Positions 46,276 to 64,000 of a DNA stretch of 64,000 bases are shown here, piece after piece (the stretch's first letter is position 1; the number at the start of each line of letters is the position of its first letter). The notes under the pieces were generated by a model that saw only the letters and a list, made by a program, of their open reading frames with translations, ran no database searches and was not told the origin of the DNA. Origin of the DNA: an uncultured bacterium. GTDB lineage: Bacteria > Cyanobacteriota > Vampirovibrionia > Gastranaerophilales > Gastranaerophilaceae. The position numbers and the translations under genes were made by a program. The stretch spans positions 62,001 through 126,000 of the forward strand of contig CAMTMK010000001.1 in NCBI GenBank assembly GCA_947073645.1, written 5' to 3'.

Positions 46276-46321
46276 ACAAACTCCTTTTTCTCTTATCTTA
46301 ACATGAAATTCAAGAATATTT

Positions 46322-46583
46322 TCATTTTAATTCTTTCAAAAAATCACTTACACACTTCGGAACAAAATTTGAAACAGCCATGCCCATATTAAAAATTGAA
46401 CGCACTATGCTTGAAAATACCATTGAAGTTTCAGGACTTGTTAATACTTGGTTCTAACTTTTTATTTATATTAAACAACTTCATTTCACTTTCAAAATCT
46501 TTTATATCCCTTACACCCCTGACCATATAATCTGCTCGCTCACACTTTGCAAACGAAATGGTAAATTTAATTAATCGCTCAAA
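46322..46583 (-). pseudogene. coaD: C-terminal remnant of phosphopantetheine adenylyltransferase (coaD)
   Basis: Reading the minus strand gives FERLIKFTISFAKCERADYMVRG, then VRDIKDFESEMKLFNINKKL, the CoaD segment around the conserved VRGxRxxxDFE motif. A stop and a frame change follow. The new frame continues SPETSMVFSSIVRSIFNMG and ends AVSNFVPKCVSDFLKELK, the CoaD C-terminus. The N-terminal HxGH nucleotide-binding half is missing. This is a decayed fragment; an intact copy must exist elsewhere because the enzyme is essential for coenzyme A. It marks the left edge of the accessory island. Confidence 0.82.
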
Positions 46584-46621
46584 CAGAGATTAAATAAACT
46601 TTCAGATTAAGATTTAAAAAA

Positions 46622-47728
46622 TTAATTGAATAACTTTTTACATTTGTTTTGAATATCCAAAGCAATATCTTTTGCAAATTTTTCATTTAATCCTATATTT
46701 TTTGCGACAGCCAAAATATCATCTAGAGACGGATTTTTCCCTTCGCCATTTATTGTTGTTGCATGTTCCCCATTAAACGAAGAACTATATGTTAAATCGT
46801 ATGCAGGGGATAAATACCATTCTTTTTTATTTTCGTCATAAAGATAAGAAAAATTCTTTGAATGGTCATCACGATTGTGGGCAAATACATTGAAACACAT
46901 TAACCTGAATAATTGTTCAATGTCTTTATAATTTCTTGTAAGTTCAAGCGTAAGCTTCATTAATAAATTATAATCAAGATTAGGAAGCCTGTGGCTTGTT
47001 TCTAATAACCCGCTTACAGATACCATATGAACTTTTTTGTCTTTTTTTCGATCAAATCTTTTTATCCCAAAATATCCCGAACAAATTTCGGATGGAAAAA
47101 GTTTGGTTTCTGTCATATTAATTCCGCAATCTTTTGCACATAATGAATATTGATATTCTTTTTCACCAATATTTTTAGGGTCGGTTGATGAGGGGAATTT
47201 AATTATCCAATCTCCATTATTTATAGAAGTCAAAATCTTCGGTCTTGCACCGCCTGATGAACCGCCTAATTGAAAAAGTTCATCTAAATTGTCTGAATTT
47301 TGTGATTCTAAAATTTTTGAGCATTCCTGTGCAAGAATATCAAAGTCAGAAACATTGTTTTCTGTTTCAAATTTATGTTCAGGTTTATATGTTAAAGCCC
47401 CCATTCCACTTTCTTGAACAACTGCAAGTCGATTAAGATTGTCAATTTCAACGGGATTTATTTTGTTTTTTAAAAACAACCTATCAACCAGCAATCTTCC
47501 CCAACCGTCAGGCAAACTATCGTTAAAAACTCCAAATAAGCCGTCGAATGGTTCATATTTGGGAATAAAAACTTTTTTAATTAACGGTAAACTAAAAGGC
47601 GATATACTAAAACCGTTATTTAACCAATCCAAATCGTATTCAAATGCGACAACTCTTTCAGGAGTTTTCGCAAGAGTACCAACTAAAATATTATTATAGA
47701 ATACTTTTAAATATTTATAGTTGTCCAT
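46622..47728 (-). CDS. hipA: HipA-family serine/threonine kinase toxin
   Basis: 368-aa toxin of a type II toxin-antitoxin pair; HipA enzymes phosphorylate glutamyl-tRNA synthetase or related targets. The N-terminal HipA_N-like domain includes FNDSLPDGWGRLL. SSGGARPK is the ATP-site loop. FNVFAHNRDDHSKNFSYL carries the catalytic Asp. LSPAYDLTYS gives the metal-binding DL motif. The length is shorter than E. coli HipA (440 aa) but usual for many relatives. It overlaps the antitoxin gene by 14 bp. Confidence 0.92.
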   Translation of the reverse strand: MDNYKYLKVFYNNILVGTLAKTPERVVAFEYDLDWLNNGFSISPFSLPLIKKVFIPKYEPFDGLFGVFNDSLPDGWGRLLVDRLFLKNKINPVEIDNLNRLAVVQESGMGALTYKPEHKFETENNVSDFDILAQECSKILESQNSDNLDELFQLGGSSGGARPKILTSINNGDWIIKFPSSTDPKNIGEKEYQYSLCAKDCGINMTETKLFPSEICSGYFGIKRFDRKKDKKVHMVSVSGLLETSHRLPNLDYNLLMKLTLELTRNYKDIEQLFRLMCFNVFAHNRDDHSKNFSYLYDENKKEWYLSPAYDLTYSSSFNGEHATTINGEGKNPSLDDILAVAKNIGLNEKFAKDIALDIQNKCKKLFN

Positions 47729-47999
47729 TTATAACCTCGTCAATAGAATTGTAGGTTTTTTGCGTAAATAGGTTTTCAAAATCTTTTTCTAAATTAAGTG
47801 CAATCAGAATTTTAATCAAAGAATTTAGTGAAATTTCATATTTTGACTCAAACCTTTTGATAGAGCCAAGACTAACACCTGACTTTGCAGCAAGTTGAAC
47901 CTGCGAAATTTTAAGCAATTTCCGTTGCTGCTTAATTTTTTCAACAAATTCTTTTGCAATATCATAGGGTGATTTAGCATAAAAAATAAAGTCATTCAT
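47715..47999 (-). CDS. hipB: HipB-family antitoxin
   Basis: 94-aa XRE DNA-binding antitoxin. The helix-turn-helix is at about 34-55 (LKISQVQLAAKSGVSLGSIKRFE). The C-terminal tail (about 80-94) could contact the kinase. It lies first in the operon, overlapping hipA. Two copies of a GATAATATATTA-type palindrome directly upstream, one touching the start codon, are the expected operators through which the complex represses itself. Confidence 0.9.
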   Translation of the reverse strand: MNDFIFYAKSPYDIAKEFVEKIKQQRKLLKISQVQLAAKSGVSLGSIKRFESKYEISLNSLIKILIALNLEKDFENLFTQKTYNSIDEVINGQL

Positions 48000-49812: not shown

Positions 49813-49871
49813 GCTTTATTTCTTTTATCTTTTAGGTAATTAATGTTGTGGCTCAAAACCTTGAGGTACAA

Positions 49872-50411
49872 ATGAACATCGTCGAACCAATAAAAAGTTT
49901 GGAAAAAATCCAAGAAATGAAGCAGATTTTAGCCAAGAAGCCACGCAACGCTTTGCTTTTCAGCTTCGGAATAAATAGCGGATTAAGAATCGCTGATATC
50001 CTCTCCCTTGACGTCAAAGACGTAAAAGGCAAAGATTATATAGAACTGAGAGAAAAGAAAACCAATAAGTATAAGAAATTCCCAATTAACAAAAACCTGA
50101 AAACCGAGATTGAAGAATTTGTAAAAGACAAACACGACGAAAGACCGCTATTTTATACACAAAAAGGGTATAGATTGGATAGAGCCCAAGCCTACCGAAT
50201 AATAAACAAAGCCGCCCGAATGGTAGGGATTAAGGGGCGAATCGGAACACATACCTTACGAAAAACCTTCGGATATCACTTTTACCAACAATACGACGAT
50301 ATTGTAATGCTTCAAAAAATCTTCAACCACTCCACCCCCTCCATCACCCTCCGCTACATCGGAATTGAGCAAGAAGACATCGATGAGGTATATAGAAATT
50401 TTTATTTGTAA
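49872..50411 (+). CDS. minimal tyrosine recombinase (catalytic domain only)
   Basis: 179 aa from the ATG at 49872, which has GAGG upstream; a GTG 24 bp earlier is less likely. All catalytic residues of the phage integrase family are present: Arg39 (GLRIADIL), Lys near 63, His127-x-x-Arg130 (HTLRKTFGYH), His153 and Tyr162 (LRYIGI). The usual N-terminal core-binding domain is absent. Small relatives of this type occur in low-GC bacteria and on plasmids. It may act on the 67-bp repeats beside it, but this is inference. Confidence 0.9.
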   Translation: MNIVEPIKSLEKIQEMKQILAKKPRNALLFSFGINSGLRIADILSLDVKDVKGKDYIELREKKTNKYKKFPINKNLKTEIEEFVKDKHDERPLFYTQKGYRLDRAQAYRIINKAARMVGIKGRIGTHTLRKTFGYHFYQQYDDIVMLQKIFNHSTPSITLRYIGIEQEDIDEVYRNFYL

Positions 50412-51186: not shown

Positions 51187-53520
51187 ATGGCATTAAAGTT
51201 GGAAGTTCAGATTGATTGTAATAAAATATATTCTCCACTAAGAGATAAATGGCTTGTATTAACACCGGAAGAACAAGTAAGACAAAATTATATTTGCAGA
51301 CTTGTTAATTTTTATGGATATAGTCTTGGACAAATGGACGAAGAATTAAAGGTTAACAACTCTCATCGTGGACAGGGTAAGGCTAGGGCAGATATTGTTA
51401 TTTGGAAATCTAAAGAAGATAAACAGAAAAACAAAGCAGCTTTTATCGTAATAGAATGTAAAGCCGAAACCGTTAAAATCCAGCAACAAGATTACTATCA
51501 AGGTGCGAATTATGCAGCATGGTCAGGTGCAAATTTCTTTGTTACAACTAATGCTAAAGAAACAAAATTCTTTAGAGTAGATAAAGACTCAATGCCAAAA
51601 GATCTTGATGAAATTATTGACATTCCAAATGCTTCAATAATTAATGACCAAAAGAAGATTGATAAATTATTATCTCAAACAAAAGCTTTTTCAAGAGATG
51701 AATTTGCAAAACTGCTTCAAAAATGTCATAACATCATTAGGAATAATGACAAACTGTCTCCGGAAGCCGCATTTGATGAAATTAGCAAAATCTTATTTAT
51801 GAAAATAAGATATGAAAGAAACCCTGATGAAGATGTATTATTTTCTTTAGAAAAATTCCAAAAAGACGAAAAACACTTTGAGAAGAACATCAAGAAGCAT
51901 CTGCCTATTGAAGCTCAAATACCTTATATGCAATATTTATTTAAGGCTACAAAAGATGAGTTTGCAGATGATAAATTATTTGAACCTTATGAGACAATAA
52001 AAATCAAGCAATATAGCTTTGAACAAATTGTAAAAGAGCTTGAGAAGTATAATTTATCCGCGACCTCTGATGATGTTAAAGGTATTGCGTTTGAGCACTT
52101 TTTAGGTACAACATTCAGAGGTGAATTAGGGCAATTTTTTACGCCTCGTACAATTGTAGATTTTATGGTAGAAGTTCTTAATCCTCAAGAAGGAGAAACT
52201 ATTTGTGATCCTACTTGCGGCTCAGGAGGTTTTTTAATAAAAGCATTTGAATATGTTAGAGATAAAATTGAAAAAGATGTAGAACAATGTAAAAAAGACT
52301 TAAAAGCTAGACTTTTTGACGAAGAATATGAAAAATTATCAGAAAAAGAACAGCTTGAAGTTAATGAAAAATATAGTGATTACATCAGAAAATTAACAAT
52401 TGATATAAGCGTTCCAAACAAATCGTATCAAAAGCAATCTGACGCAGAAAAAAATAGAAGAATATCAAAATTGTCATCAAGTTGTATATACGGTACAGAT
52501 GCGAACCCAAGAATGGCTAGAACATCGAAAATGAACATGATAATGCATGGTGATGGTCATGGTGGAGTTCATCATCACGACGGATTAATCAATGTAAATG
52601 GCATTTTTGAAAACAGGTTTGATGTAATTTTAACCAATCCTCCATTTGGAGCAAGAATCGAAAAAGACTATAAATTAAGTGAAACAGATCGTTTCTACGA
52701 TGAAGAAAAACTAGAAGAATACAAAGAACGCTATGGCGATGATTGTATAAGACAAATCAATGAGCTTAATACTGCCATTGATAAAGGACAAAAAATCCTT
52801 GATAGATTTGAGCTAGGCAAAGTTAGCGGATTAACTGAAGTTTTGTTTATGGAAAGATGTTTAAAACTTCTTAAACCTGGCGGCAGAATGGGAATGGTAC
52901 TGCCGGAAGGAGTTTTAAACAATTCCAATTTGCAAAAAGTAAGGGATTACTTTGAATCTGAAGCAAAAATACTTTTAATTACATCTATACCACAAGATGT
53001 TTTTATAGCTTCAGGTGCAACTATTAAACCAAGTTTGTTATTCTTCAAACGATTTACAGAAGAAGAAAAGCAACAATATCTTAAAATAAAAACACAAGTA
53101 GAAGCAGAAATACAAAAGGATGTTAAAATAGAGCTGGATAAATGGTTTGAAATAGAAAAAAATAAGATTTTATTATTAAAGCTACCTCAGAAAAAAGCCC
53201 TTGCAACATTAAATGTATTAGTGAAACAATACAACAGAACTTTAGAAAAAGAATTTCAAAATAAAATGGATACAATTGGCAAAGATAGAATCAAAGAACT
53301 TTTCAATTACGAAATTCCAATTGTACAAGTTGAAAAAGCTGGTATTACAACAACAGGTGGAAAGTGCAAAAACGAGCTTGAAGATGTTGCAAAAGAATTT
53401 AGAATATATCGCCAAAACAATAGCCTATGGCAAGACAATAAATTAGATATTACATACAAGGTTGAAAATGATAACTTGGTACGAATAATAAATGGTGAGG
53501 AACAAGTTATTGATGAATAA
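51187..53520 (+). CDS. fused restriction nuclease-adenine methyltransferase (type IIG/IIB-like RM subunit)
   Basis: 777 aa. The N-terminal 160 residues are a PD-(D/E)xK nuclease of the HsdR_N type: Asp69 in ARADIVIW, then Glu90 and Lys92 in IECKAE. The methylase domain (about 170-640) has a helical HsdM N-terminus, GQFFTPRTIVDFM, SAM motif I DPTCGSGG at 341-348 and catalytic NPPF at 484-487. A coiled helical tail follows. No translocase (HsdR helicase) is present in the window. Together with the separate specificity subunit this matches BcgI-like enzymes, which cut on both sides of a bipartite site. AAAGGG precedes the ATG. Confidence 0.88.
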   Translation: MALKLEVQIDCNKIYSPLRDKWLVLTPEEQVRQNYICRLVNFYGYSLGQMDEELKVNNSHRGQGKARADIVIWKSKEDKQKNKAAFIVIECKAETVKIQQQDYYQGANYAAWSGANFFVTTNAKETKFFRVDKDSMPKDLDEIIDIPNASIINDQKKIDKLLSQTKAFSRDEFAKLLQKCHNIIRNNDKLSPEAAFDEISKILFMKIRYERNPDEDVLFSLEKFQKDEKHFEKNIKKHLPIEAQIPYMQYLFKATKDEFADDKLFEPYETIKIKQYSFEQIVKELEKYNLSATSDDVKGIAFEHFLGTTFRGELGQFFTPRTIVDFMVEVLNPQEGETICDPTCGSGGFLIKAFEYVRDKIEKDVEQCKKDLKARLFDEEYEKLSEKEQLEVNEKYSDYIRKLTIDISVPNKSYQKQSDAEKNRRISKLSSSCIYGTDANPRMARTSKMNMIMHGDGHGGVHHHDGLINVNGIFENRFDVILTNPPFGARIEKDYKLSETDRFYDEEKLEEYKERYGDDCIRQINELNTAIDKGQKILDRFELGKVSGLTEVLFMERCLKLLKPGGRMGMVLPEGVLNNSNLQKVRDYFESEAKILLITSIPQDVFIASGATIKPSLLFFKRFTEEEKQQYLKIKTQVEAEIQKDVKIELDKWFEIEKNKILLLKLPQKKALATLNVLVKQYNRTLEKEFQNKMDTIGKDRIKELFNYEIPIVQVEKAGITTTGGKCKNELEDVAKEFRIYRQNNSLWQDNKLDITYKVENDNLVRIINGEEQVIDE

Positions 53521-54865
53521 TAATTTTTCATATCTTAATTTTATCAAATTTTCGCAACTTAATCTGTGGGATTTTAAGCGTTATACAACTAGTATTGTTA
53601 ATTCCAAATATCCTATTGTTAAATTGTCAGATTATATTCAAGAAGAAAATTCAAAAATAAAACCATTTGAAAATCCTGAAGAAGAATATGAAATACTAGG
53701 GGTAAATAATAAAACTGGATTGTTTGATGCTTATATTGAAAAAGGTAGTAAAATAAACCAGCCATACAAAATTGTTAAAAACGGATTTCTTGCCTACAAT
53801 CCTTATCGTATTAACGTTGGTTCTATTGGCTTAAAAACAGAAAATCAAAAATACAAGTACATAAGTCCTGCTTATGCTGTTTTTAGTTGTAAAAAAGGTT
53901 TGTTGCCTGAATTTTTGTATATATTATTTAGAACAAACAAGTTTAATGAATTAATTAGAGATAATACTACAGGTTCCGTAAGACAAACTTTATCATTTAC
54001 CTCTATGGGAAATATTCGAATACCATTACCATCATTAGAAATACAGGCAGAATTTGTCAAAAAATATAATGATAAAATTAAACTTGCAGAAGAACAAGAA
54101 ACTAAGGTATTACAATTAGAAAATGACATTGAAAAATATTTATTTGAAATATTAGGATTAAAAATTAATAAAAATATGGCATGTGCTAAGTTGCAATTTA
54201 TTAACTTTTCAAACATAAGATTGTGGGGAATAGATAAGATATTGGGCAATAATGCATTTGTTTCAGATAAATATAAGTTGCAGTCTTTATTGGAAAATGC
54301 GAATTTATATCAAGAAGCGTTTAGAGGAAAAAGTCCCAAATATAAAGATAGTACTAATGCAATTATACTGAATCAGAAATGTAATAGATGGAATAGTATA
54401 GATTTACAATATGCAAAGACTGTATCTGAGGAATGGTTAAACTCAATTAATGACAATTTTAAAACAAAAGAAAATGATATATTAGTAAATTCGACAGGAG
54501 AAGGAACAATTGGGCGTGCAACTTATATAGATAAAAATCATACAAATTTATTATACGACAGTCATATGTTGCTATTAAGGCTGAATACTGAATTAGTAAA
54601 TCCACTATATTATACATATTTATTAAACAGCAGTTTTGGACAAGAGCAAATTAATTATATAAAATCTGCACAATCAACAAAACAAACTGAACTTGGAATT
54701 GATAATTTAAAACTTATTGAATTTCCATATCCTAGTATAGATATTCAAAATGAAATTGTTGCACATATAGAAGAATTAAGTGAAAACATAGTAAACTTAC
54801 GCAAACAATCCAAAAAAAATAGAATAGCAGCTCAAGAAGAATTTGAAAAGGAGCTGTTTGAATAA
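53513..54865 (+). CDS. specificity subunit (two target-recognition domains)
   Basis: 450 aa from the ATG at 53513, overlapping the methylase stop by 8 bp; an earlier ATG at 53492 is possible. Two TRD halves are visible. The first (about 15-215) ends IPLPSLEIQAEFVKKYND and a coiled coil EEQETKVLQLENDIEKYLF. The second (about 225-450) ends FPYPSIDIQNEIVAHIEEL and another coiled coil. This is the HsdS layout, so the pair should recognise a bipartite sequence. The stop codon shares one base with the next gene's ATG. Confidence 0.9.
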   Translation: MNNNFSYLNFIKFSQLNLWDFKRYTTSIVNSKYPIVKLSDYIQEENSKIKPFENPEEEYEILGVNNKTGLFDAYIEKGSKINQPYKIVKNGFLAYNPYRINVGSIGLKTENQKYKYISPAYAVFSCKKGLLPEFLYILFRTNKFNELIRDNTTGSVRQTLSFTSMGNIRIPLPSLEIQAEFVKKYNDKIKLAEEQETKVLQLENDIEKYLFEILGLKINKNMACAKLQFINFSNIRLWGIDKILGNNAFVSDKYKLQSLLENANLYQEAFRGKSPKYKDSTNAIILNQKCNRWNSIDLQYAKTVSEEWLNSINDNFKTKENDILVNSTGEGTIGRATYIDKNHTNLLYDSHMLLLRLNTELVNPLYYTYLLNSSFGQEQINYIKSAQSTKQTELGIDNLKLIEFPYPSIDIQNEIVAHIEELSENIVNLRKQSKKNRIAAQEEFEKELFE

Positions 54866-57321
54866 TGGATAAACAAACTCTACGTTATACATATCTTACA
54901 TATTTTGCTGGTCAATATGCTAAAAAAGAAGATATGGACTATTATGCATTAGTTGAAATGGCTGGTGATAATTATGAACTCTGCACAGAAGTTATTAAAG
55001 AACTTGTTGATGAAGGTCTTGTTCTTGGTATAGAACTTATAAAAACAAAAGTAGGTTATGCTGTTGGACAGTACCAAGGAAAATTAAAATTAACAGCCAA
55101 GGGGATAAAAGAAATTTTAAATTTATTTCCTGATGAAAAGAAAGAAATTATTGATGATATAAAATCTGATATTGAAGATAAAAATCATAAAATACTTTCT
55201 GTTGAAGACATTATAAATAAAGAAAATGAAAGAATATCAAAATTATCAAAAAAAGAAAAAGAAGAAGAAATAAAAACTAAAATATTAGAACTTTTTAAAT
55301 ACCTACTTTCAAAAATAGAAAAATATCCAAACGGAAAAATAACCAATAATGAACTAAAAGAAAAAATAAAAAAGATTGTTAAAATATATTTTAAATCAAT
55401 ACCTCAAATCTATGCTAAAAGTCTTACCGAGGACTTGCTAAAAGAGGGTTATATTACTTTTTTATATCAAAAAAGTAACGAAGGTTCTTATGATATAGAC
55501 AAACTATTAACAACTAAAGCTATCGATTTTTTAAATAAGATTAAAGATGAGGAAGAACAAGAAATTCAGAAATATTTTAAGGAACATAATATTAAGTTTC
55601 CAAATGTTGATATCCCTAGTGGACTTATGCAGGCTTACAAAAGCATATATAATAATCCAACACTTATAAAAGCAATTGAACAATCTTCAATCTTAACAAA
55701 GTATATGTATAATAATATACCAAACTTGGATTATAGCAACATTCAAATGGCGATAGAAGCAGCCAGTAATATACCAAGCAATATAGCTTTTAATTATATT
55801 CCACAAAATAAAAAAGACAATATAAATGATGATATAAATAAAACTTATACTTTCGAAGGTATTTTAGGACGAAATTGCGGTGAAGTTGTAACACCGACAA
55901 GTGAAGATATTAAAAGAATTCGGGAAAAAGGATTTAAAGTAGAAAATGGAATTAAAGTTTTAAGAGGATTTGCAAATTCTGCTATATTAGCCTTTGCGTC
56001 TCGGAAAGATGAAAATTATCAAAGGGAAGAAAATCCGAAACATCTTAATGCAATAGAAAAATTTGTTAAGAATATGCGTACCTCTGCAAAATATTTACCA
56101 GAAGTAACTTTAATAGCACGTGGTTATGAAAAACTCGAAAAAATAAATCTTTCTGGTACTTTATCGGAAAAACAAAGAGGGGAAATCGAAAATCTTGAAT
56201 ATTATAAATTAACAGTATCGGAAAGTAATTTATACAGAATTGATGGTAACCATAGGCTTAAAGCATTAAAAAGAGATAATTATTACATTCCTTTTTCAAT
56301 AATAATCTGGGAAGATATTGATATTAATCCTGATGACGAGGCATTTCTATTTTATTTCTTAAACAATAAAGCAAAGAAATTAACCACAGAAGAAAATTTA
56401 AAAGGTCTTGTCAACGCAACAACTTGGAAGTCACATGAATTGTTAGAAGCAAATAAGCATTTACCACATTTACAATACTTGGAAGAACAAATTCAAACAA
56501 GTAAATTTTTAAGTTCATATTTTTGCAATAATGAACCAATAAAAAATATTGCAGAAATATTAGAAAGAATTGAAGATAATATAGAATTTAACCAGTTCCA
56601 GGAAATATTATCCCTAACAAACGAATTATTAATTCATGATAAATGGAGTGAACTAAAGCAATTTGATTTTTATTGTCAATTAGTATTTTATATTGCCTAT
56701 AAAACTCCATATAAAAAGGCATGTTTGAGCGTTTTAGACAATATAAATAATTGGGTAAAAAAATACAAATTTGATAACACAACATTTGATAACCCAATTA
56801 TGCTATATAAAAGTGCTGAGAAAACAAACAATACTCGTCCAATAAAAGTTTTTATTGCAATGCCATATTATGGCGATGAAATAATTGAAGATGTTAATGA
56901 TCAGTTAAAAAAACTATCTGAAGAATTGATCAAAGCATATCCATTACTAGAAAATAGATTTGAAATCTATGAGGTTATGAAACATAGGGGATACGAAATT
57001 GATATCCAAAATCAAATTATGGAACAAATAAAATCTGCTAGCATTTTCATTGCAGATATATCTGAACACATTTGTAAAAAGGGAACAAAAACAGTAGATT
57101 GTCACGCGAATCCAAATGTAATGTATGAGTTAGGAATTGCAAAAGGGCAACCTTATACGGAAATAATTTTATTAAAAAATAAAAATGATAAAATTGAAGC
57201 GCCGTCTGATATTATTACAAAATATCATAATAAATTTGAACTTGATAAAAAAGTATCAATGCGAAAAAAATTATTTGAGGCTATAGAAAGCATTCTAAAA
57301 GATAAATTTGAAATAATTTAA
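54865..57321 (+). CDS. winged-helix / DGQHR-like / TIR-deoxyribosyltransferase-like fusion protein
   Basis: 818 aa, third gene of the restriction operon; its ATG uses the last base of the specificity gene's stop. Residues 1-90 look like a winged helix (YYALVEMAGDNYELCTEVI, LTAKGIKEIL). A charged coiled coil and a second winged helix follow (about 135-230). The central part has a DGQHR-like motif, RIDGNHR at 458-464, with FYFLNNKAKKLTTEE after it, as in DndB/DGQHR proteins. Residues 660-775 form a Rossmann-like domain: FIAMPYYG (663-670), IADIS (729-733), NPNVMYELG (749-757). This resembles TIR and nucleoside deoxyribosyltransferase-like NAD-binding effectors. Likely a defence effector; the combination is unfamiliar to me. 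Confidence 0.85.
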   Translation: MDKQTLRYTYLTYFAGQYAKKEDMDYYALVEMAGDNYELCTEVIKELVDEGLVLGIELIKTKVGYAVGQYQGKLKLTAKGIKEILNLFPDEKKEIIDDIKSDIEDKNHKILSVEDIINKENERISKLSKKEKEEEIKTKILELFKYLLSKIEKYPNGKITNNELKEKIKKIVKIYFKSIPQIYAKSLTEDLLKEGYITFLYQKSNEGSYDIDKLLTTKAIDFLNKIKDEEEQEIQKYFKEHNIKFPNVDIPSGLMQAYKSIYNNPTLIKAIEQSSILTKYMYNNIPNLDYSNIQMAIEAASNIPSNIAFNYIPQNKKDNINDDINKTYTFEGILGRNCGEVVTPTSEDIKRIREKGFKVENGIKVLRGFANSAILAFASRKDENYQREENPKHLNAIEKFVKNMRTSAKYLPEVTLIARGYEKLEKINLSGTLSEKQRGEIENLEYYKLTVSESNLYRIDGNHRLKALKRDNYYIPFSIIIWEDIDINPDDEAFLFYFLNNKAKKLTTEENLKGLVNATTWKSHELLEANKHLPHLQYLEEQIQTSKFLSSYFCNNEPIKNIAEILERIEDNIEFNQFQEILSLTNELLIHDKWSELKQFDFYCQLVFYIAYKTPYKKACLSVLDNINNWVKKYKFDNTTFDNPIMLYKSAEKTNNTRPIKVFIAMPYYGDEIIEDVNDQLKKLSEELIKAYPLLENRFEIYEVMKHRGYEIDIQNQIMEQIKSASIFIADISEHICKKGTKTVDCHANPNVMYELGIAKGQPYTEIILLKNKNDKIEAPSDIITKYHNKFELDKKVSMRKKLFEAIESILKDKFEII

Positions 57322-57408: not shown

Positions 57409-58833
57409 ATGTTAGATTCAAAACATATATACAGGTACCGTTCAATTGACAAATTGTTCGAATACAAAGAGCTTGAAAACTTAGAAATTTATTTTTCAAA
57501 ACCATCAGAATTAAACGATAAAATGGAAGAGTACATGAATATAGTGTGGAAAGGTGATGAAATTGCTTTTCAGTGTATGTTGAAACATTATATTTATTCT
57601 CTTTATCACTTATATGCAATTGCTTCGATTATAGATCCAGGTGAAAAATTGGATAGAAGCAATCTTCCAATATTTTTAACATATGAATCTTTATCATATC
57701 CCGAAATGAACACCCTGTTTAAAGATATATATAGTGAGTTTTTTAACAGTCCTCAAATTGCACAAATTCCAAAATTAATGAGTGAATCGCAAAAAAATTT
57801 CAATCAAGATGAAATAGGCTTTATTTTAAAATCAGTACACTTATATGCCTACTTGGTAATAAATACTTTAGTAAAAAAACATATATATCAAAATGATCTT
57901 TTAAAATCTAAAGAATATGCTATCATATATAATAATTTAAAAACAGCAACACGCTACACAGAGTTGTTGAAAATAATAATTAACAGTAAAGATAAAGAAA
58001 AAATCGCTCAATTTATCAATTTTTCCGAATATACTCAAAAGGAAATAAAAAAAGCTCTTCAAATTCAATTCTTTGATAAAAATAAGCATAATATTGAACT
58101 TTTAACATTTGATTTTACTGAATTATATATGCAGCAACTAAAAAGACTTTTGTATGACGAACATTATATTGCCTGTTTTACAAACACCTTTAATAATAAA
58201 TTAATGTGGGGACATTATGCAAATGGTGGCAATGGAATTTGCTTAAAATATAAAACAAAAACCAATAATTCTAAAAATTTTATTGATTTATATCTGTCAA
58301 GTGGAATTAGTTGTAATTCAAATGGTACACAAATACATAAAAATTATGTTTCTTGTGAAATACATGAAGTAAATTACTCCGATAACTATCCAGAAATTGA
58401 TTTTTTTAATTCTTTAGGCTGTATTCCGATGCCAGTAATTCATGGGTTTTGGCTTTGCAATTACGAAAAAACTCAATTTAGCGAGTGTTGCGAATATTAT
58501 AGAAACATGGATATTTGGAGAGCAGAATATCACCAAAGAGCCACTGAATACATTTGCACTAAATCTAAAGAATGGGATTACGAAGAAGAGTATAGAGTAT
58601 TTATTAGAAATACATTTTCATTATTTGATAATATTGAAGATAGGAAAGCAAAATATAATTTTGAAGATTTAGAAGCAATTATATTTGGACAAAAGGTTAT
58701 TGATGAAGATAAAAAGAAAATAGTTCAGATTGTAGAAAAACATTGTAAAAATACAAATAGAGAAGATTTTAAATTTTATGACTTATATTATTCTACTATA
58801 ACAAAACAATTAGAGATTAAACCCTATATTTAA
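57409..58833 (+). CDS. DUF2971-family protein
   Basis: 474 aa. YRYRSIDKLFEYKELENLEIYFSKPSELND opens the DUF2971 pattern (in pieces), and LMWGHYANGGNGICLKY is its diagnostic core. EWDYEEEYRVF and AIIFGQKV close it. A helical insertion of about 150 residues separates the first two parts, making it longer than most members. DUF2971 proteins recur in phage-defence regions; no mechanism is established to my knowledge. It follows the DGQHR gene by 87 bp on the same strand and has GGAG upstream. Confidence 0.85.
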   Translation: MLDSKHIYRYRSIDKLFEYKELENLEIYFSKPSELNDKMEEYMNIVWKGDEIAFQCMLKHYIYSLYHLYAIASIIDPGEKLDRSNLPIFLTYESLSYPEMNTLFKDIYSEFFNSPQIAQIPKLMSESQKNFNQDEIGFILKSVHLYAYLVINTLVKKHIYQNDLLKSKEYAIIYNNLKTATRYTELLKIIINSKDKEKIAQFINFSEYTQKEIKKALQIQFFDKNKHNIELLTFDFTELYMQQLKRLLYDEHYIACFTNTFNNKLMWGHYANGGNGICLKYKTKTNNSKNFIDLYLSSGISCNSNGTQIHKNYVSCEIHEVNYSDNYPEIDFFNSLGCIPMPVIHGFWLCNYEKTQFSECCEYYRNMDIWRAEYHQRATEYICTKSKEWDYEEEYRVFIRNTFSLFDNIEDRKAKYNFEDLEAIIFGQKVIDEDKKKIVQIVEKHCKNTNREDFKFYDLYYSTITKQLEIKPYI

Positions 58834-58999
58834 AATTTTGAATTATCTTTATTTGTGTTAAAATTAACCTAATGTTATTCATCAATAAAAATTATATGTC
58901 AAATGGGTTTTTTAAAGATCATGGTAGTATAGCAGAATTATTTAATGTTGTGTAAACAAAGAATTGAAGTCTGTTACAAATGGTTTAAGGTGTGACTTA

Positions 59000-60124
59000 A
59001 TGGATATTTTGATTTTAGGAAATGGTTTTGATTTAGCACATGGGTTGAATACAAGGTATGTTGATTTTTTGGATTATTGCGCAAAACAGCTTGGAAACCC
59101 GTTGGCTTATAAACCCACTGATCCGTTTTTTACAAATATGTGGATTAGGCATTTTTTAAACATCCAACAACAATTGGGTGATACTTGGATTGATTTGGAA
59201 AATGAAATTTATAATGTAATAAAACATATTTCAAAATTACCTTTTTTAAATTCTTCAAGTTGCTATAAGACTTTTTCTATAGATTTCAATAATATGATTT
59301 TTAATTTTTATAATTTTGATAAATATACAACCGAAGTGTCTGGCGGATACAAAGCAGGAGAAAATGAATATATAAGATATGATGGCCATAATTGTATAAG
59401 CTACATTATATATTTTTCAAGCTCAAAAGGTATTATTAATTTCCTGTATGATCAATTACGAGAATTTACCAAATTGTTTAACTATTATTTATTAAACGAA
59501 ATCTTGGCTCCACTACAGAATGAGTCACAATACCAACTATCCCTAAAATCAATAGGAGTGGGCAAGGGAAATAAAGATGTACACGTATTGAGTTTCAATT
59601 ATACTGATACCTGTAAAAGACTATATGATCAAAAATTTAACGTATATTGCAATATCAATATTAAGCCTGTTTATGTGCATGGACAGGTATGCAAATCTAA
59701 AAATTGCAATTTAGTCCTTGGAACACACTCTTTTTTTAATAGTTTGCCAAATGATTTAAATGAAGAAATTAATGTTGAGTTTAACATATTTAAAAAACAT
59801 TACCAAAGACACCGCTATGAAACAATAGAGTCATATCAAGATTTATTGCGAAAAATTAAAAAGACTTGTTCTATTCCAATTTTTCATATTATAGGGCATT
59901 CACTTGATAGTGCTGACCACAACATTTTAAAACATATTCTTCTTGCTAATCCTAATTCTATAATTAACATCTATTATCATAATAAAGAAGCCCAAGAACG
60001 ATTTATGCACAAGATTAATTCTATAATTGGCGAAGAGGAAGTTATGGCAAAGGTTAGATTTATTGACCAGCATGATGCAAAACGTGGAATTTTGATACCT
60101 CAAGAAAAATTACAAAATGTTTAA
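59000..60124 (+). CDS. AbiH-family phage abortive-infection protein
   Basis: 374 aa from the ATG at 59000 with AAGGTG upstream; an extension to 58964 is less likely. MDILILGNGFDLAHGLNTRY is the signature AbiH N-terminus, a nucleotide-binding-like glycine motif. HVLSFNYTDTCKRLY and FHIIGHSLDSADHNIL are the other conserved blocks. AbiH was first described as a lactococcal abortive-infection gene; its biochemistry is not settled. It closes a plus-strand run of defence-type genes. Confidence 0.9.
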   Translation: MDILILGNGFDLAHGLNTRYVDFLDYCAKQLGNPLAYKPTDPFFTNMWIRHFLNIQQQLGDTWIDLENEIYNVIKHISKLPFLNSSSCYKTFSIDFNNMIFNFYNFDKYTTEVSGGYKAGENEYIRYDGHNCISYIIYFSSSKGIINFLYDQLREFTKLFNYYLLNEILAPLQNESQYQLSLKSIGVGKGNKDVHVLSFNYTDTCKRLYDQKFNVYCNINIKPVYVHGQVCKSKNCNLVLGTHSFFNSLPNDLNEEINVEFNIFKKHYQRHRYETIESYQDLLRKIKKTCSIPIFHIIGHSLDSADHNILKHILLANPNSIINIYYHNKEAQERFMHKINSIIGEEEVMAKVRFIDQHDAKRGILIPQEKLQNV

Positions 60125-60325
60125 TTTGATTTATTTCAACCTTGATTGGCAAATATTTTAATAAAACAACCAAAATTGAAAAATAAGTTGCGTTTAAATC
60201 TTGTTCAAATACCATTCAAAAGGTGTTCAAAAAATATTTATGTTGAAATGATACGATTTAAGGTACATACAGTTGATGTTTCTTATCAAAAGAGTAATTA
60301 ATTGTGTAGCTTAAAGGAGCATAAT

Positions 60326-60532
60326 ATGACTGAAAAGTTAGATTTATTATTTGGAACAAAGATTTTAAACCGACAAACAAATGAAATCGGTTTGTTAATC
60401 AAAACTTGGAGAAATGAATTCGCAGACGGAAGCATTTGGTTTGCAACCTGTGTTGATACAAAAGGGAAGCGTTATCACATTGAACTTGATGAAATTGTGC
60501 CAATGGAGGATGTTAATGATTCTGAAGAATAA
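60326..60532 (+). CDS. small hypothetical protein
   Basis: 68 aa from the ATG at 60326, chosen for the AAAGGAG site 8 bp upstream. It is mostly beta: LLFGTKILNRQTNEIGLLIKTWRNE, then FATCVDTKGKRYHIELDEIVPME. This pattern suggests a small barrel such as an SH3-like fold. No family can be named. The 3' end overlaps a second small frame that is broken by a stop codon. Upstream 200 bp (60125-60325) is AT-rich with nothing clear. Confidence 0.65.
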   Translation: MTEKLDLLFGTKILNRQTNEIGLLIKTWRNEFADGSIWFATCVDTKGKRYHIELDEIVPMEDVNDSEE

Positions 60533-60698
60533 ACTTACCCGCAAAACTTTAGAAATAACTTATCCTGAATTTAGAAAAAAGTTTGCTAAAGAAATTTAAG
60601 AAGCCTTTGAAAGCTACCGCAAAACTCAGTTAAACAAGTACTCATATAACTTCAAAGACGATAATTCTATGGAATTTAATTTTTATAACAATGAGTGA
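60510..60698 (+). pseudogene. small gene with an internal stop
   Basis: The frame starting at 60510 (AATGGAGG just ahead) reads MLMILKNKLTRKTLEITYPEF and on, to TAA at 60597-60599. It then stays open in the same frame for 32 more residues (EAFESYRKTQLNKYSYNFKD and on) and ends at 60696-60698, just before a terminator. It would be a single 62-aa basic protein without the internal stop. It overlaps the previous gene by 23 bp, so the two probably form a pair. Confidence 0.5.
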
Positions 60699-60825: not shown

Positions 60826-61551
60826 TTATTTAGGCTGATTGATTGAATTTTTAACATATTCTTTAATATTATTTTGAGTAAATTCCTTTATTGCCGTAGT
60901 TCCTTCTTCCCATCTTGTCCTATTTTTAGTTTTCTTATGCAGATAGTTCATTTGTTTAAGATAATCTGCTTGTAAGTTTTTGGCATTCTTGTTTAATATT
61001 CCTATTTCTTCTTTTATTTGTTTTTGAAGTTTTTCTATTTCATTATTTGGAACATTTGTCATTTCTTTTAAATGTAACTCTAGATTTAATCTATCTATAA
61101 TGTTTATCGGTAAAATAATATATTGCTGAACTATCGTATGTAAATATTGCACATAATCGGCTGTTTTGCACTCTTTTGAATATGTATTAAATGGTGAATA
61201 ATTTGCAAAATTAATATTTGATATTGAACTATCGAGCGAACTTGAATAGCCCATAAGAGTATTAATTGCATATTTTAGATTAGAAGTTTCATTTAAATTT
61301 AATATAAGTTGTTGGATTTGTTCAAGGTCAGAATAAATAAATGCTCCACGGTAAAACAGATTGTTAAAAAATTCCTCTTTTTCATGCCAGTAGTTTATTA
61401 CAGAGATTACTATTGAAATAAACGAACCCGTAATAATCGCAATTGACATTTCTGACATAGTCGGATGTGTTTTCTTGCAAAAATAAAAAATTCCAATGGA
61501 AATAATAAAAATTAAACTTAACCAAAAACCTACTTTTTTATTAATATTCAT
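60826..61551 (-). CDS. two-helix membrane protein with coiled-coil domain
   Basis: 241-aa unrecognised protein. Two transmembrane helices are near the N-terminus (about 8-25 and 34-54), with a short loop. A long helical cytoplasmic region follows, with coiled-coil character at about 165-215 (NNEIEKLQKQIKEEIGILNK). It starts 3 bp after mrr, with GAGGAA as ribosome site, so the two form an operon. A membrane protein paired with a nuclease suggests an anchored or abortive-infection effector; this is inference only. Confidence 0.72.
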   Translation of the reverse strand: MNINKKVGFWLSLIFIISIGIFYFCKKTHPTMSEMSIAIITGSFISIVISVINYWHEKEEFFNNLFYRGAFIYSDLEQIQQLILNLNETSNLKYAINTLMGYSSSLDSSISNINFANYSPFNTYSKECKTADYVQYLHTIVQQYIILPINIIDRLNLELHLKEMTNVPNNEIEKLQKQIKEEIGILNKNAKNLQADYLKQMNYLHKKTKNRTRWEEGTTAIKEFTQNNIKEYVKNSINQPK

Positions 61552-61553
61552 TT

Positions 61554-62438
61554 CTATTCCTCACCAAAGAAATCCTCATCAATCTTCTTGATTTCAATCT
61601 TTGTTTTTAATTGCACGCCAACATTATGTTTTATCATCAATCCTGTTAATTCATCACCGTCAACAAGTCTTATTACTTTACCTTGAATTGACTCAGCTTT
61701 TCTTTTTGCTCTTTCATCAAAATAACTTGTTGTTATAAACACACCTTTTCTAACAGGAGAACAACCTAAAGCACCAGCAAAATTCTGCATTTCTTTTTCA
61801 TTAACTTTATTCTCTGAATATCTTTTTGCTTGAAGATAAATCTTTTCAAGCCCTAATTCATCTTCATCAATAATTCCATCAATACCACCATCGTGGCTCA
61901 TTTTTGTCATAGAACCAACACCATAATTCATTTTTTCCATAAGTTCAAGAACTATTTGCTCAAATCTAATTGGTTCAACAGACTTTAACTTTGCCAAAAG
62001 CTCTTTCTTTAAACTATCCGTATAAAGTGATTGAGCATTTTCAATTAATTCTTCAGGAGTTTTGTTTTCTTCAATATGATTATCCTCAATTTCCGTTTGG
62101 GTATTTGGTTGATTTTCGTTATCAAGATTTTTTAAAAATCTTAAATCAATTTTTTGTGGATTTTCTTTTAAAATTTCAATACCTTTTTGAGTAATTTTAA
62201 AGGAGCCTTTTTCTGGCGATTCAATCAACTCAGAGTTTTTTAAATACTGTTTTGCCCAAGCAACACGATTATACATGGTTTTTTGCACTTTACTAGGCAA
62301 CCATTCATTTCTTTCTTCTTCGGTTAAATTGTATTTATCCGACATGATTTCTACCATTTCAGATAATTTAACAAGTTTCCCATCTTTTAATAATTCTAAC
62401 AACGGTAACATTAATGTTTGAAAATCAGGTATTGCCAT
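61554..62438 (-). CDS. mrr: Mrr-family type IV restriction endonuclease
   Basis: 294 aa. Residues 1-90 are the Mrr N-terminal winged-helix domain, with KVQKTMYNRVAWAKQYLKNSELIESPEKG. Residues 150-285 are the catalytic domain: FEQIVLELMEKMNYGVG, then SHDGGIDGIIDED with the metal Asp, and IYLQAKRYSE with the Gln-x-Lys variant typical of Mrr. VFITTSYFDERAK follows. It probably cuts DNA carrying foreign methylation. AAAAGGAG precedes the start. Confidence 0.93.
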   Translation of the reverse strand: MAIPDFQTLMLPLLELLKDGKLVKLSEMVEIMSDKYNLTEEERNEWLPSKVQKTMYNRVAWAKQYLKNSELIESPEKGSFKITQKGIEILKENPQKIDLRFLKNLDNENQPNTQTEIEDNHIEENKTPEELIENAQSLYTDSLKKELLAKLKSVEPIRFEQIVLELMEKMNYGVGSMTKMSHDGGIDGIIDEDELGLEKIYLQAKRYSENKVNEKEMQNFAGALGCSPVRKGVFITTSYFDERAKRKAESIQGKVIRLVDGDELTGLMIKHNVGVQLKTKIEIKKIDEDFFGEE

Positions 62439-62506: not shown

Positions 62507-62913
62507 TTACTCCATCCCCAGAACTTCTCGTTCGATTTCGCGGACTTGGTCAGGGGTGAGGAAGTTTAGTTGTTTTGGCTTGGTTGGGGAAATAGAGGCT
62601 TCGTATTCTTTGAGTAATGGGATGTTTTTTAGGATATTCATGAAAGAATAGATTTCGGATTGGTTTGTGTGCGAGTTTTTATCCAAATCGTTGTTCAGTT
62701 TTCTCATCATTTTTCTTGCAAGTTCAAGCAATTCTGGCTGAACGCGTCTTTTTCGTGTTCGTATTCAAACTTTCGCTTGTCCCAATCGTATTTCTTTTTC
62801 CAATAAAATAAAGTCCGGCGGGACAAATCGAGTTCCATTCCAATCTCGCCGAGGGTCTTATTTCCTTGCACATAAAACTTTTGAGCTTGTTTTAATTTAT
62901 GAGATTTTGCCAT
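62507..62913 (-). pseudogene. HTH phage protein (DUF1804/small-terminase-like), frameshifted
   Basis: The first 68 codons from 62913 encode a helix-turn-helix: TLGEIGMELDLSRRTLFYWKKK, followed by DWDKRKFEYEHEKDAF. The frame is lost near 62745. One missing base there would join it to the next frame, QPELLELARKMMRKLNNDL and onward to 62507. The joined product of about 135 aa resembles the small DUF1804-like proteins of Mu-type phages. It starts next to the upstream gene's stop. It is broken as written; phage origin is inferred from MuB nearby. Confidence 0.65.
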
Positions 62914-63474
62914 TTATATATTTTCCTCAAAGATTATTCTGTTAATACTAAATTTGTTTTTATCCGTCAGCCGCCGCACCTGAAAATCACAGGCAGTTTT
63001 TGCGAGTTTTTCGCGTTTACAGTATTTTAAAATCTGGTTCAAGAGTGCGAGCGAATTTTTTAATCGTCTTTCGCCCATCCCGCGCCGTTTGCAAATCGTA
63101 TAAAATCTCTTAATATCCTCTGTGCAAATTTCTCTGACTTTTTTATTTCCTAAAATTGGTATAACATTTGTTCTTAAAATTGCTGCGTAAGTCTTTATTG
63201 TATTGGGTTTGCAGAAATTTCCCGCATAATCTTTTATAAAAATTTCCGAAACAGTTTTCAAAGTTATATTTTTGTTTTCGGTTTCGGAGTTCGCAAATAC
63301 AGCAAACTCGACCTTGTTTTCAAACTCTTGGTATTTATAAATACTGTTTTCAAGCAATAATCTGCCATCAGCAATAAGTTTTTCAAGTTCCACCCCAACG
63401 TCGGATTCGGCTATCATTTCGATTTCATCAAGGGTAAATTCCTTTAAATATTTTGCTAATTTTTCGATATTCAT
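62914..63474 (-). CDS. protein with tyrosine-recombinase core-binding domain but no catalytic domain
   Basis: 186 aa. Residues 1-60 are an acidic helical region (LKEFTLDEIEMIAESDVGVE). Residues about 75-165 look like the SAM-like core-binding domain of tyrosine recombinases: TVSEIFIKDYAGN, KPNTIKTYAAILRTNVIPILG, then KVREICTEDIKRFYTICKRRG. The catalytic RHRY half is absent, and the next gene starts directly after its stop. It overlaps the MuB-like gene by 4 bp. It may be a DNA-binding accessory of the element or a truncated integrase. Confidence 0.7.
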   Translation of the reverse strand: MNIEKLAKYLKEFTLDEIEMIAESDVGVELEKLIADGRLLLENSIYKYQEFENKVEFAVFANSETENKNITLKTVSEIFIKDYAGNFCKPNTIKTYAAILRTNVIPILGNKKVREICTEDIKRFYTICKRRGMGERRLKNSLALLNQILKYCKREKLAKTACDFQVRRLTDKNKFSINRIIFEENI

Positions 63475-64000
63475 ATAATTTGTCTAATCACCTCCATATT
63501 AATTTCGGTTAGGTTGTTTCCTTTTGCAAGGGTTTCAAGTTTGTTTATCAGCTGAACAATTTGCCTGAAGCGGTTATGTTTTTGTTGGATATATTCAATC
63601 GCATCGGTGGAAATCGGTACTTGTGAAAGTTTATTTGCAATCTGAACGATGTCCCTCACTCCAAAAGTTTCAAATTTCAGAATTTCTGAAAACCTGTCAT
63701 AAAGGTGTTTATATCGTTCGAGTTTTCTGTGCGCCAAACCCATTCCAATCATAATAATCGGGCAGTCGGTCTCGTCGTGCAAGTCCCGTAAGATTTCGAC
63801 AGTCTTAAAATTGTTCATCAGGTAGTCGATTTCATCAATAAAAATCACTTTTGGGTTAGTTTTGAGCTTTTTCACCACGAGATTAAAATTGTCCGAAGTA
63901 AAGTATCTTGGCAATTCGTCCATTTCTTTTATCAAACCGTCAAGAAGCCATCTGCCCGTCATAAGGTTTGATGCTCGAAGATAAATCCCGTCATATTTAC
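63471..64000 (-). CDS. MuB-like transposition ATPase, partial at the window end
   Basis: The frame is open to the window edge. Upstream of the internal ATG at 63962 it reads KYDGIYLRASNLMTGRWLLDGL, the start of the MuB/IstB-type AAA+ core after the Walker A motif. VIFIDEIDYL is Walker B, PIIMIGMGLAHRKLERY contains sensor 1, and IQQKHNRFRQIVQLINKLE closes the C-terminal helices. MuB binds target DNA and activates the MuA-type transposase. The P-loop and transposase gene would lie beyond the window. Its operon runs toward the core-binding-domain gene. Confidence 0.82.
   Translation of the reverse strand, partial: KYDGIYLRASNLMTGRWLLDGLIKEMDELPRYFTSDNFNLVVKKLKTNPKVIFIDEIDYLMNNFKTVEILRDLHDETDCPIIMIGMGLAHRKLERYKHLYDRFSEILKFETFGVRDIVQIANKLSQVPISTDAIEYIQQKHNRFRQIVQLINKLETLAKGNNLTEINMEVIRQII

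Follow-up and report, generated by a model that had tools for sequence, protein, structure and literature searches.

A probable Mu-type defence-cargo transposon beside a tRNA-Met gene in an uncultured Gastranaerophilales bacterium, with a small core-binding protein as its candidate target selector

The window analysed here is a stretch of 64,000 nucleotides (positions 62001-126000 of a 133,922-base contig in a 1.71-Mb genome). We put at roughly 70% the probability that it contains one end of a Mu-type (MuA/MuB) transposon of about 24.5 kb, which carries defence genes, lies beyond the 3' end of a tRNA-Met gene and most likely has its target selected by a small core-binding protein (CB). The operon, the element ends, the target duplication, the adjacency and orientation of the tRNA gene, the co-variation of CB with tRNA isotype and the defence cargo were all read from the DNA. 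Coordinates follow window numbering, and values above 64000 refer to the same contig (L004), which extends 7.9 kb past the window.

The operon in the window and across the family

The open reading frames of the window placed genes for a MuB-type ATPase, CB and a frameshifted HTH protein consecutively on the minus strand (Table 1). The ATPase contains Walker A (GEPGLGKT) and Walker B (VIFIDEID) motifs and matched phrog_296 (6e-41), and its gene overlaps the CB gene by 4 nt. Pfam found no Phage_integrase catalytic domain in the 186-aa CB protein of the window, and the first HTH fragment matched Terminase_5 (2e-6) and DUF1804 (7e-4). The reading frames and the Pfam matches together confirmed the series that the first-pass annotation had described, namely a MuB-type ATPase, a protein with only the core-binding domain of a recombinase and a broken DUF1804-like gene. 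That annotation had also offered truncation of the element at this point as one of two readings and had proposed looking beyond 64 kb for a MuA-type transposase. A complete MuA-type DDE transposase was found there, directly upstream of MuB and just outside the window, which rules out truncation.

Table 1. Features of the island and its flanks, in window numbering
Feature	Position	Strand	Remarks
Stretch between right-end homology and host junction	46276-46566	.	about 280 bp; host junction near 46287
Right-end region	46566-46620	.	by homology to the G143 right end; boundary near 46566; divergent, without terminal CA
HipBA-type toxin-antitoxin pair	46622-47999	-	HipA 46622-47728, HipB 47715-47999
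Catalytic-domain-only tyrosine recombinase	49848-50411	+	187 aa; Phage_integrase 1.5e-23
Type I restriction-modification (cargo)	51187-54865	+	HsdM with HSDR_N 51187-53520; HsdS 53492-54865
818-aa cargo protein	54865-57321	+	no Pfam or PADLOC match at E <= 0.001
DUF2971 / PDC-S31 candidate defence protein (cargo)	57409-58833	+	Pfam/PADLOC
AbiH abortive-infection protein (cargo)	58964-60124	+	Pfam/PADLOC
Small conserved backbone ORFs, 'MILKNKLTRETLEITYPEFRKK' type	60302-60599	+	mid-element in relatives
241-aa protein (cargo)	60826-61551	-	ORF; family not assigned
Mrr-type type IV restriction enzyme (cargo)	61554-62438	-	Pfam/PADLOC
HTH gene (DUF1804 / terminase-small-subunit-like)	62507-62913	-	frameshift-split; fragments 62707-62913 and 62507-62731
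CB-only protein	62914-63474	-	186 aa; Phage_int_SAM_3 3e-10 (Pfam); proposed tRNA-gene target selector
MuB-type AAA+ ATPase	63471-64000 in the window, to 64151 in full	-	226 aa; AAA_22 4e-12, TniB 3e-7 (Pfam)
MuA-type DDE transposase	64220-66016		598 aa, complete; phrog_310 1.5e-87, Mu-transpos_C 3e-14; DDE-type motifs
tRNA-Met	71186-71259		adjoins enolase (eno)

To place this operon in the family, CB was searched in relatives, which are mostly fragmented metagenome assemblies. At E <= 0.001 it matched 31 of the 97 related genomes searched, and a CB profile matched 115 of 383 genomes from the family at E <= 1e-14. We compiled 74 loci, 60 of them fetched from 77 further strong CB matches listed (E <= 2e-59) and 14 obtained earlier; the 17 listed matches that were not used are all close to a contig end, 16 of them having little DNA upstream and the other, G212, being omitted inadvertently. 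Group-2 and group-3 CB loci, 15 of which were fetched among the weaker matches listed, were kept outside these counts. The gene order MuA-MuB-CB-HTH was present in most of the 74 loci, and the MuB and CB matches abut (offset 0) in 44 of the loci with MuB. Of the 60 elements measured, 57 have a CB of 180 aa or more, the sole long version being a 561-aa fusion to MuA (G000b), and the catalytic domain was absent from CB in all 60, including the fused one. These results indicate that CB without a catalytic domain is the normal state and not a break, and its absence throughout, together with the profile matches across the family, indicates that the arrangement is not due to chance. The HTH gene encodes at least 125 aa in 53 of 57 measured elements, so the frameshift in the window is either special to this copy or an assembly error. 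The HTH protein is probably a regulator or an accessory protein. Among the tRNA-typed subtypes compared, identities were about 78-85% for MuA, 71-80% for MuB, 40-57% for CB and 41-62% for HTH, showing faster divergence of CB and HTH than of MuA and MuB; in all four proteins the G063 type stands further apart than the other subtypes.

A second island was observed in the same genome on contig C3 (L005:14477-18817), at a tRNA-Gly gene. It carries an in-frame truncated MuA-CB fusion that stems from an internal deletion, a GH108 endolysin-like gene and a restriction-modification set.

Element ends, insertion sites and cargo

The left end was recognised in 57 of 60 elements searched. It starts with TATAGG..., TATAACC..., TAATAGG... 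or TATAATG... and opens some 330 bp of conserved sequence, in which the TTGCACT box occurs three times directly and three times inverted. The right end, ...TTTAATCTTGTTCTGTATGTTAAATTACA, was found by comparing the downstream DNA of different elements, and reads ...TTACA in 10 elements inspected and in G143. Inverted copies of the left-end motif were searched for at the far end and not found; the right end is a different sequence. A recognisable right end was contained in 11 of 20 downstream stretches fetched, and nine of these 11 elements (G165, G143, G301, G194b, G306b, G196, G320, G129 and G278) are bounded by a 5-bp target duplication, the 5 bases that follow the right end being identical to those preceding a left end; in G167 and G406 the right end is present and the 5 bp do not match. 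As a control, ends from different elements were paired, and none of 187 pairings gave a 5-bp match.

The other reading offered by the first-pass annotation, a compact transposon carrying defence cargo, proved right, as relatives have both ends and 5-bp duplications with defence genes between them. As for the TG/CA ends that it proposed to look for, the right end closes in CA in the elements inspected, and the left end begins with TA in most elements and with TG in G310 and G148. The expected 5-bp duplication was found in relatives and not in the window's own copy, which has no clean one: in the Met-type islands of the window, G268 and G186, the right-end sequence is divergent and no matching duplication was found. 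The window's copy holds three left-end copies with cargo between them, and is thus composite. We had considered the repeat of about 330 bp ('R') as an att site in direct repeats, and rejected this since the alignment of compact elements shows it to be the element's left end. The left-end repeats arise by repeated insertion at the same tRNA gene.

Several further observations concern the left ends. New insertions often lie inside older left ends at the same tRNA gene, giving nested copies in one orientation (L045, L051, L056, L004), and no sign of target immunity was seen among these. GC-rich hairpin stretches, perhaps small mobile palindromes, break the left end at recurrent places (e.g. L204, L221, L211).

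We assessed the position of the elements relative to tRNA genes and found that at 60 of the 74 loci the 7 kb upstream of MuA contain a tRNA gene on the same strand whose 3' end points towards MuA. The remaining 14 comprise 10 loci without MuA or with too little upstream DNA and four (G231, G186, G194 and G155) that are tRNA-free despite more than 11 kb of upstream DNA. In the controls, an opposite-strand tRNA gene occurred in the same upstream stretch at only two loci, and none of 59 loci had a tRNA gene within 3 kb downstream of CB. The elements examined use 12 tRNA isotypes. In 53 of 57 elements the left end starts 5-189 bp beyond the 3' end of the tRNA gene, and in the other four the two are more than 600 bp apart; the median distance is 74, and the distance is not fixed. 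Empty sites are consistent with insertion. G010 and G012 have the host gene, tRNA-Met and enolase with about 24.8 kb less, at a site occupied in G000, and the two genes that flank the island in G026 and G023, tRNA-Ile and tRNA-Ala, are adjacent in G014.

The tRNA-Ile(GAT) locus beside a 154-aa host gene (L110-L128) is a general hot spot, with different insertions in several relatives, some without a Mu-type left end. Among the more distant relatives, group-2 CB proteins (L330-L337) have 167-169 aa and are encoded in MuA-MuB operons, some beside tRNA-Arg, tRNA-Lys or tRNA-Ser. Group-3 relatives (L338-L344) have a MuA about 53% identical, a CB of 262-268 aa and, in several, a divergent 91-aa HTH gene; no tRNA gene was found near these loci, and an Rfam search of loci without a tRNA gene for other RNA targets gave only a SAM riboswitch, in L339.

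The cargo of the window was searched with Pfam and PADLOC. The first-pass annotation had stated that defence genes follow the operon with no further phage genes, and this agrees with our results: Mrr and other defence genes were found, and no virion genes were seen in the cargo at 46.6-62.4 kb. The HipBA genes are the innermost right-end genes in Met-type elements. Beyond MuA lie an Mrr-nSTAND3 protein (PDC-S73) and another protein, which we take to be RhuM-like. The bounded elements differ in cargo, with type II methylases and LmuB in G165, a type IIG system and IetAS in G320, type I and AbiE in G129, a DRT UG5-nitrilase in G278, and GajA (Gabija), type IV and type I in G143. Of 20 chosen proteins from seven of these elements, 15 matched a PADLOC model at 1e-10, and no virion genes were seen in the ORF lists of the nine.

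A defective Mu-like prophage remnant, or a defence island assembled by unrelated events at a tRNA hot spot, would account for the 24-27% identity of MuA to transposases of transposable phages, for the internally deleted C3 copy in the same genome and for the other insertions held by tRNA-Ile loci. We consider this most improbable, given that dozens of genomes share the operon, the ends and the orientation while their cargo differs, that virion genes were not seen in the listed cargo, and that CB had no match in 50,697 phage records or in viral contigs; the duplications in nine of 11 elements had already disfavoured it. A complete Mu-like phage was rejected on the same lack of virion genes in the cargo and of CB in phage records and viral contigs.

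Insertion at tRNA 3' flanks is also characteristic of integrase islands, and the window's island encodes both a CB-only and a catalytic-only protein. The element could in that case be a tyrosine-recombinase integrative element with a split integrase, in which MuA/MuB is a passenger; in some islands the tRNA-side repeat does reappear in part past HipA, pointing the same way. Such an integrase element is nevertheless very unlikely, because the elements have ends of conserved sequence bounded by 5-bp duplications, and CB is encoded inside the MuA-MuB operon, overlapping MuB. Moreover, the catalytic-only protein was present in one and missing from eight of the nine elements with a duplication (tblastn 1e-10), and it occurs in 94 of 97 genomes, with or without CB. 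The catalytic-only recombinases form a large multicopy family, with many per genome, and may act as invertases or resolvases instead of being partnered with CB.

The CB protein and its relation to tRNA isotype

In the AlphaFold2 model of CB (mean pLDDT 83.9), residues 1-48 form a winged helix and residues 72-154 a four-helix domain; the C-terminal tail is poorly ordered in the model and is conserved. Foldseek searches with the model returned core-binding domains of phage integrases, none better than E 0.003 (2kd1, TM 0.70 by target length and 1.7 A over 92 columns; 3lys, 0.74). The predicted structure identifies CB as a recombinase core-binding protein that stands alone and has no catalytic domain. 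When regional identity was compared in 54 elements, residues 59-138 were 38% identical between isotypes and 76% within them, and the N- and C-terminal parts were 60-65% and 81% identical, respectively. Such a layout, a variable middle flanked by conserved ends, would be expected if a target-reading part lay between constant docking parts. Residues 3-58 also gave weak matches to 212-237-aa open frames elsewhere in these genomes (e.g. L034-L036, L039), suggesting that the N-terminal domain may be shared with other proteins.

We then compared the trees of the four proteins with the tRNA anticodon (16 states), using 55 of the 60 labelled elements after fused, split or short proteins had been dropped. 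The anticodon changed 19 times on the CB tree, 25 times on the MuA tree and 27 times on the MuB tree, and shuffled labels gave at least 28-29 changes. On the 50 elements with HTH, the changes numbered 18 for CB, 23 for HTH, 23 for MuA and 24 for MuB. In a pair comparison of 51 elements, in which pairs are not independent and Ile dominates, same-isotype pairs with MuA below 92% identity exceeded different-isotype pairs by 13.3 points in CB, 0.3 in MuA, 1.5 in MuB and 3.4 in HTH. The nearest neighbour had the same isotype for 35 of the 51 elements by CB, 24 by MuA, 21 by MuB and 27 by HTH. Two genomes each hold two elements at different tRNA genes (Thr and Tyr in G306, Leu and Ile in G165) that are 91% identical in MuA and 58% in CB. 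Against a link stand the 113 pairs with MuA identity of 85-95% and CB identity of 55-75%, none of which share an isotype, and exceptions with near-identical CB at different tRNA genes: G068 (Leu) and G228 (Arg) group with Ile-type elements, and members of the G013 clade lie at Leu, Ala, Thr, Lys and Met genes. Taken together, CB sequence follows tRNA isotype far better than MuA, MuB or HTH, a link that is correlative.

In phage Mu, MuB is the target-DNA binder, and tRNA targeting by MuB, MuA or HTH, with CB serving in end binding or regulation and its divergence tracking lineage, is also conceivable. The fast divergence that HTH shares with CB and the partial association of HTH with isotype (23 changes) point the same way. 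We nonetheless find targeting by these proteins unlikely: the identity gaps between same- and different-isotype pairs are minimal in MuA and MuB, the paired elements of G306 and G165 reach different tRNA genes with closely similar MuA, and over one identical set of 50 elements the labels agree more closely with CB than with HTH.

Proposed mechanism, precedents and significance

On balance, it seems fairly probable that these elements form a Mu-type transposon family that homes by means of a stand-alone CB, which would read the tRNA gene directly, recruit MuB through its conserved flanks without a TniQ-like bridge and be re-targeted to at least 12 isotypes by changes in its middle part. MuA would cut and join the conserved ends, yielding the 5-bp target duplication, and MuB would act as the AAA+ activator. 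CB would derive from a tyrosine recombinase, keeping the half that grips DNA and lacking the catalytic one; with its variable core-binding part it would recognise one particular tRNA gene, and through the conserved flanks it would hand the site to MuB/MuA. Insertion would then fall mostly 30-190 bp past the tRNA 3' end, with the MuA end nearest the tRNA gene. That CB binds tRNA genes, contacts MuB and alone sets the target is what we infer from these patterns. Counting against the proposal are the four loci with ample upstream DNA and no tRNA gene, the elements without a matching duplication, the variable distance to the tRNA gene and the group-3 relatives with no tRNA gene close by.

Like Mu and other transposable phages, the elements encode a MuB-type ATPase after a MuA-type DDE transposase, show a 5-bp target duplication and have a right end closing in CA; they differ in the defence cargo, with no virion genes seen, in insertion beside tRNA genes, in a left end that is usually TA and in the extra CB gene. 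Tycheposons, found in relatives of cyanobacteria, are likewise tRNA-associated cargo elements; they are moved by complete tyrosine recombinases, whereas the elements described here encode a DDE transposase.

The nearest precedent is TnsF of the Tn6022-like elements (Tn7 family), a target selector that contains core-binding domains but lacks a functional catalytic domain (Faure et al. 2023, PMC10293859). There, and by our proposal here, the target of a DDE transposon with a TnsC/MuB-type ATPase is selected by a catalytically dead recombinase. TnsF has zinc fingers at its N-terminus, tandem core-binding domains and part of a catalytic domain, works through TniQ and targets comM (PMC10293859), whereas CB has a winged helix, one core-binding domain and a tail, no catalytic part and no TniQ, and is associated with many tRNA genes. 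TniQ (PF06527) was found above the cut-off in none of 15 genomes.

Homing a short way downstream of a tRNA gene is shared with Tn7-like elements and CASTs, as is the defence cargo: CyCAST I-D is reported to home 30-33 nt downstream of a tRNA gene (PMC10293859), and defence cargo to be typical of Tn7-like elements (PMC8649781). Those systems use TnsD/TniQ; here none was found above the cut-off in the 15 genomes searched, the distance varies, mostly between 30 and 190 bp, and about 12 isotypes are used. The Mu-like CASTs (I-A, V-F) are Mu transposons with CRISPR selectors (PMC11656645), and thus resemble the present elements as Mu-type transposons that have recruited an outside target selector. 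Their selector is CRISPR RNA-guided, whereas the one proposed here is a protein derived from a tyrosine recombinase. A literature search, with subscription journals mostly outside it, found no earlier account of a Mu-type transposon that lies at tRNA genes and has a selector of recombinase origin.

The genomic comparisons thus point to a targeted MuA/MuB transposon in which a recombinase-derived protein would serve as selector. If this is true, tyrosine recombinases became target selectors at least twice, as TnsF in Tn7-like elements and as CB in Mu-type ones, and one small domain may suffice to aim a MuA/MuB transposase. How MuB is directed to its site could be tested by gene exchange, as CB occurs in dozens of natural variants whose tRNA targets are known. 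The family would then represent a naturally re-programmable, protein-guided form of transposition that spreads defence genes among gut Gastranaerophilales, and would explain why defence genes gather behind tRNA genes in this uncultured gut order.
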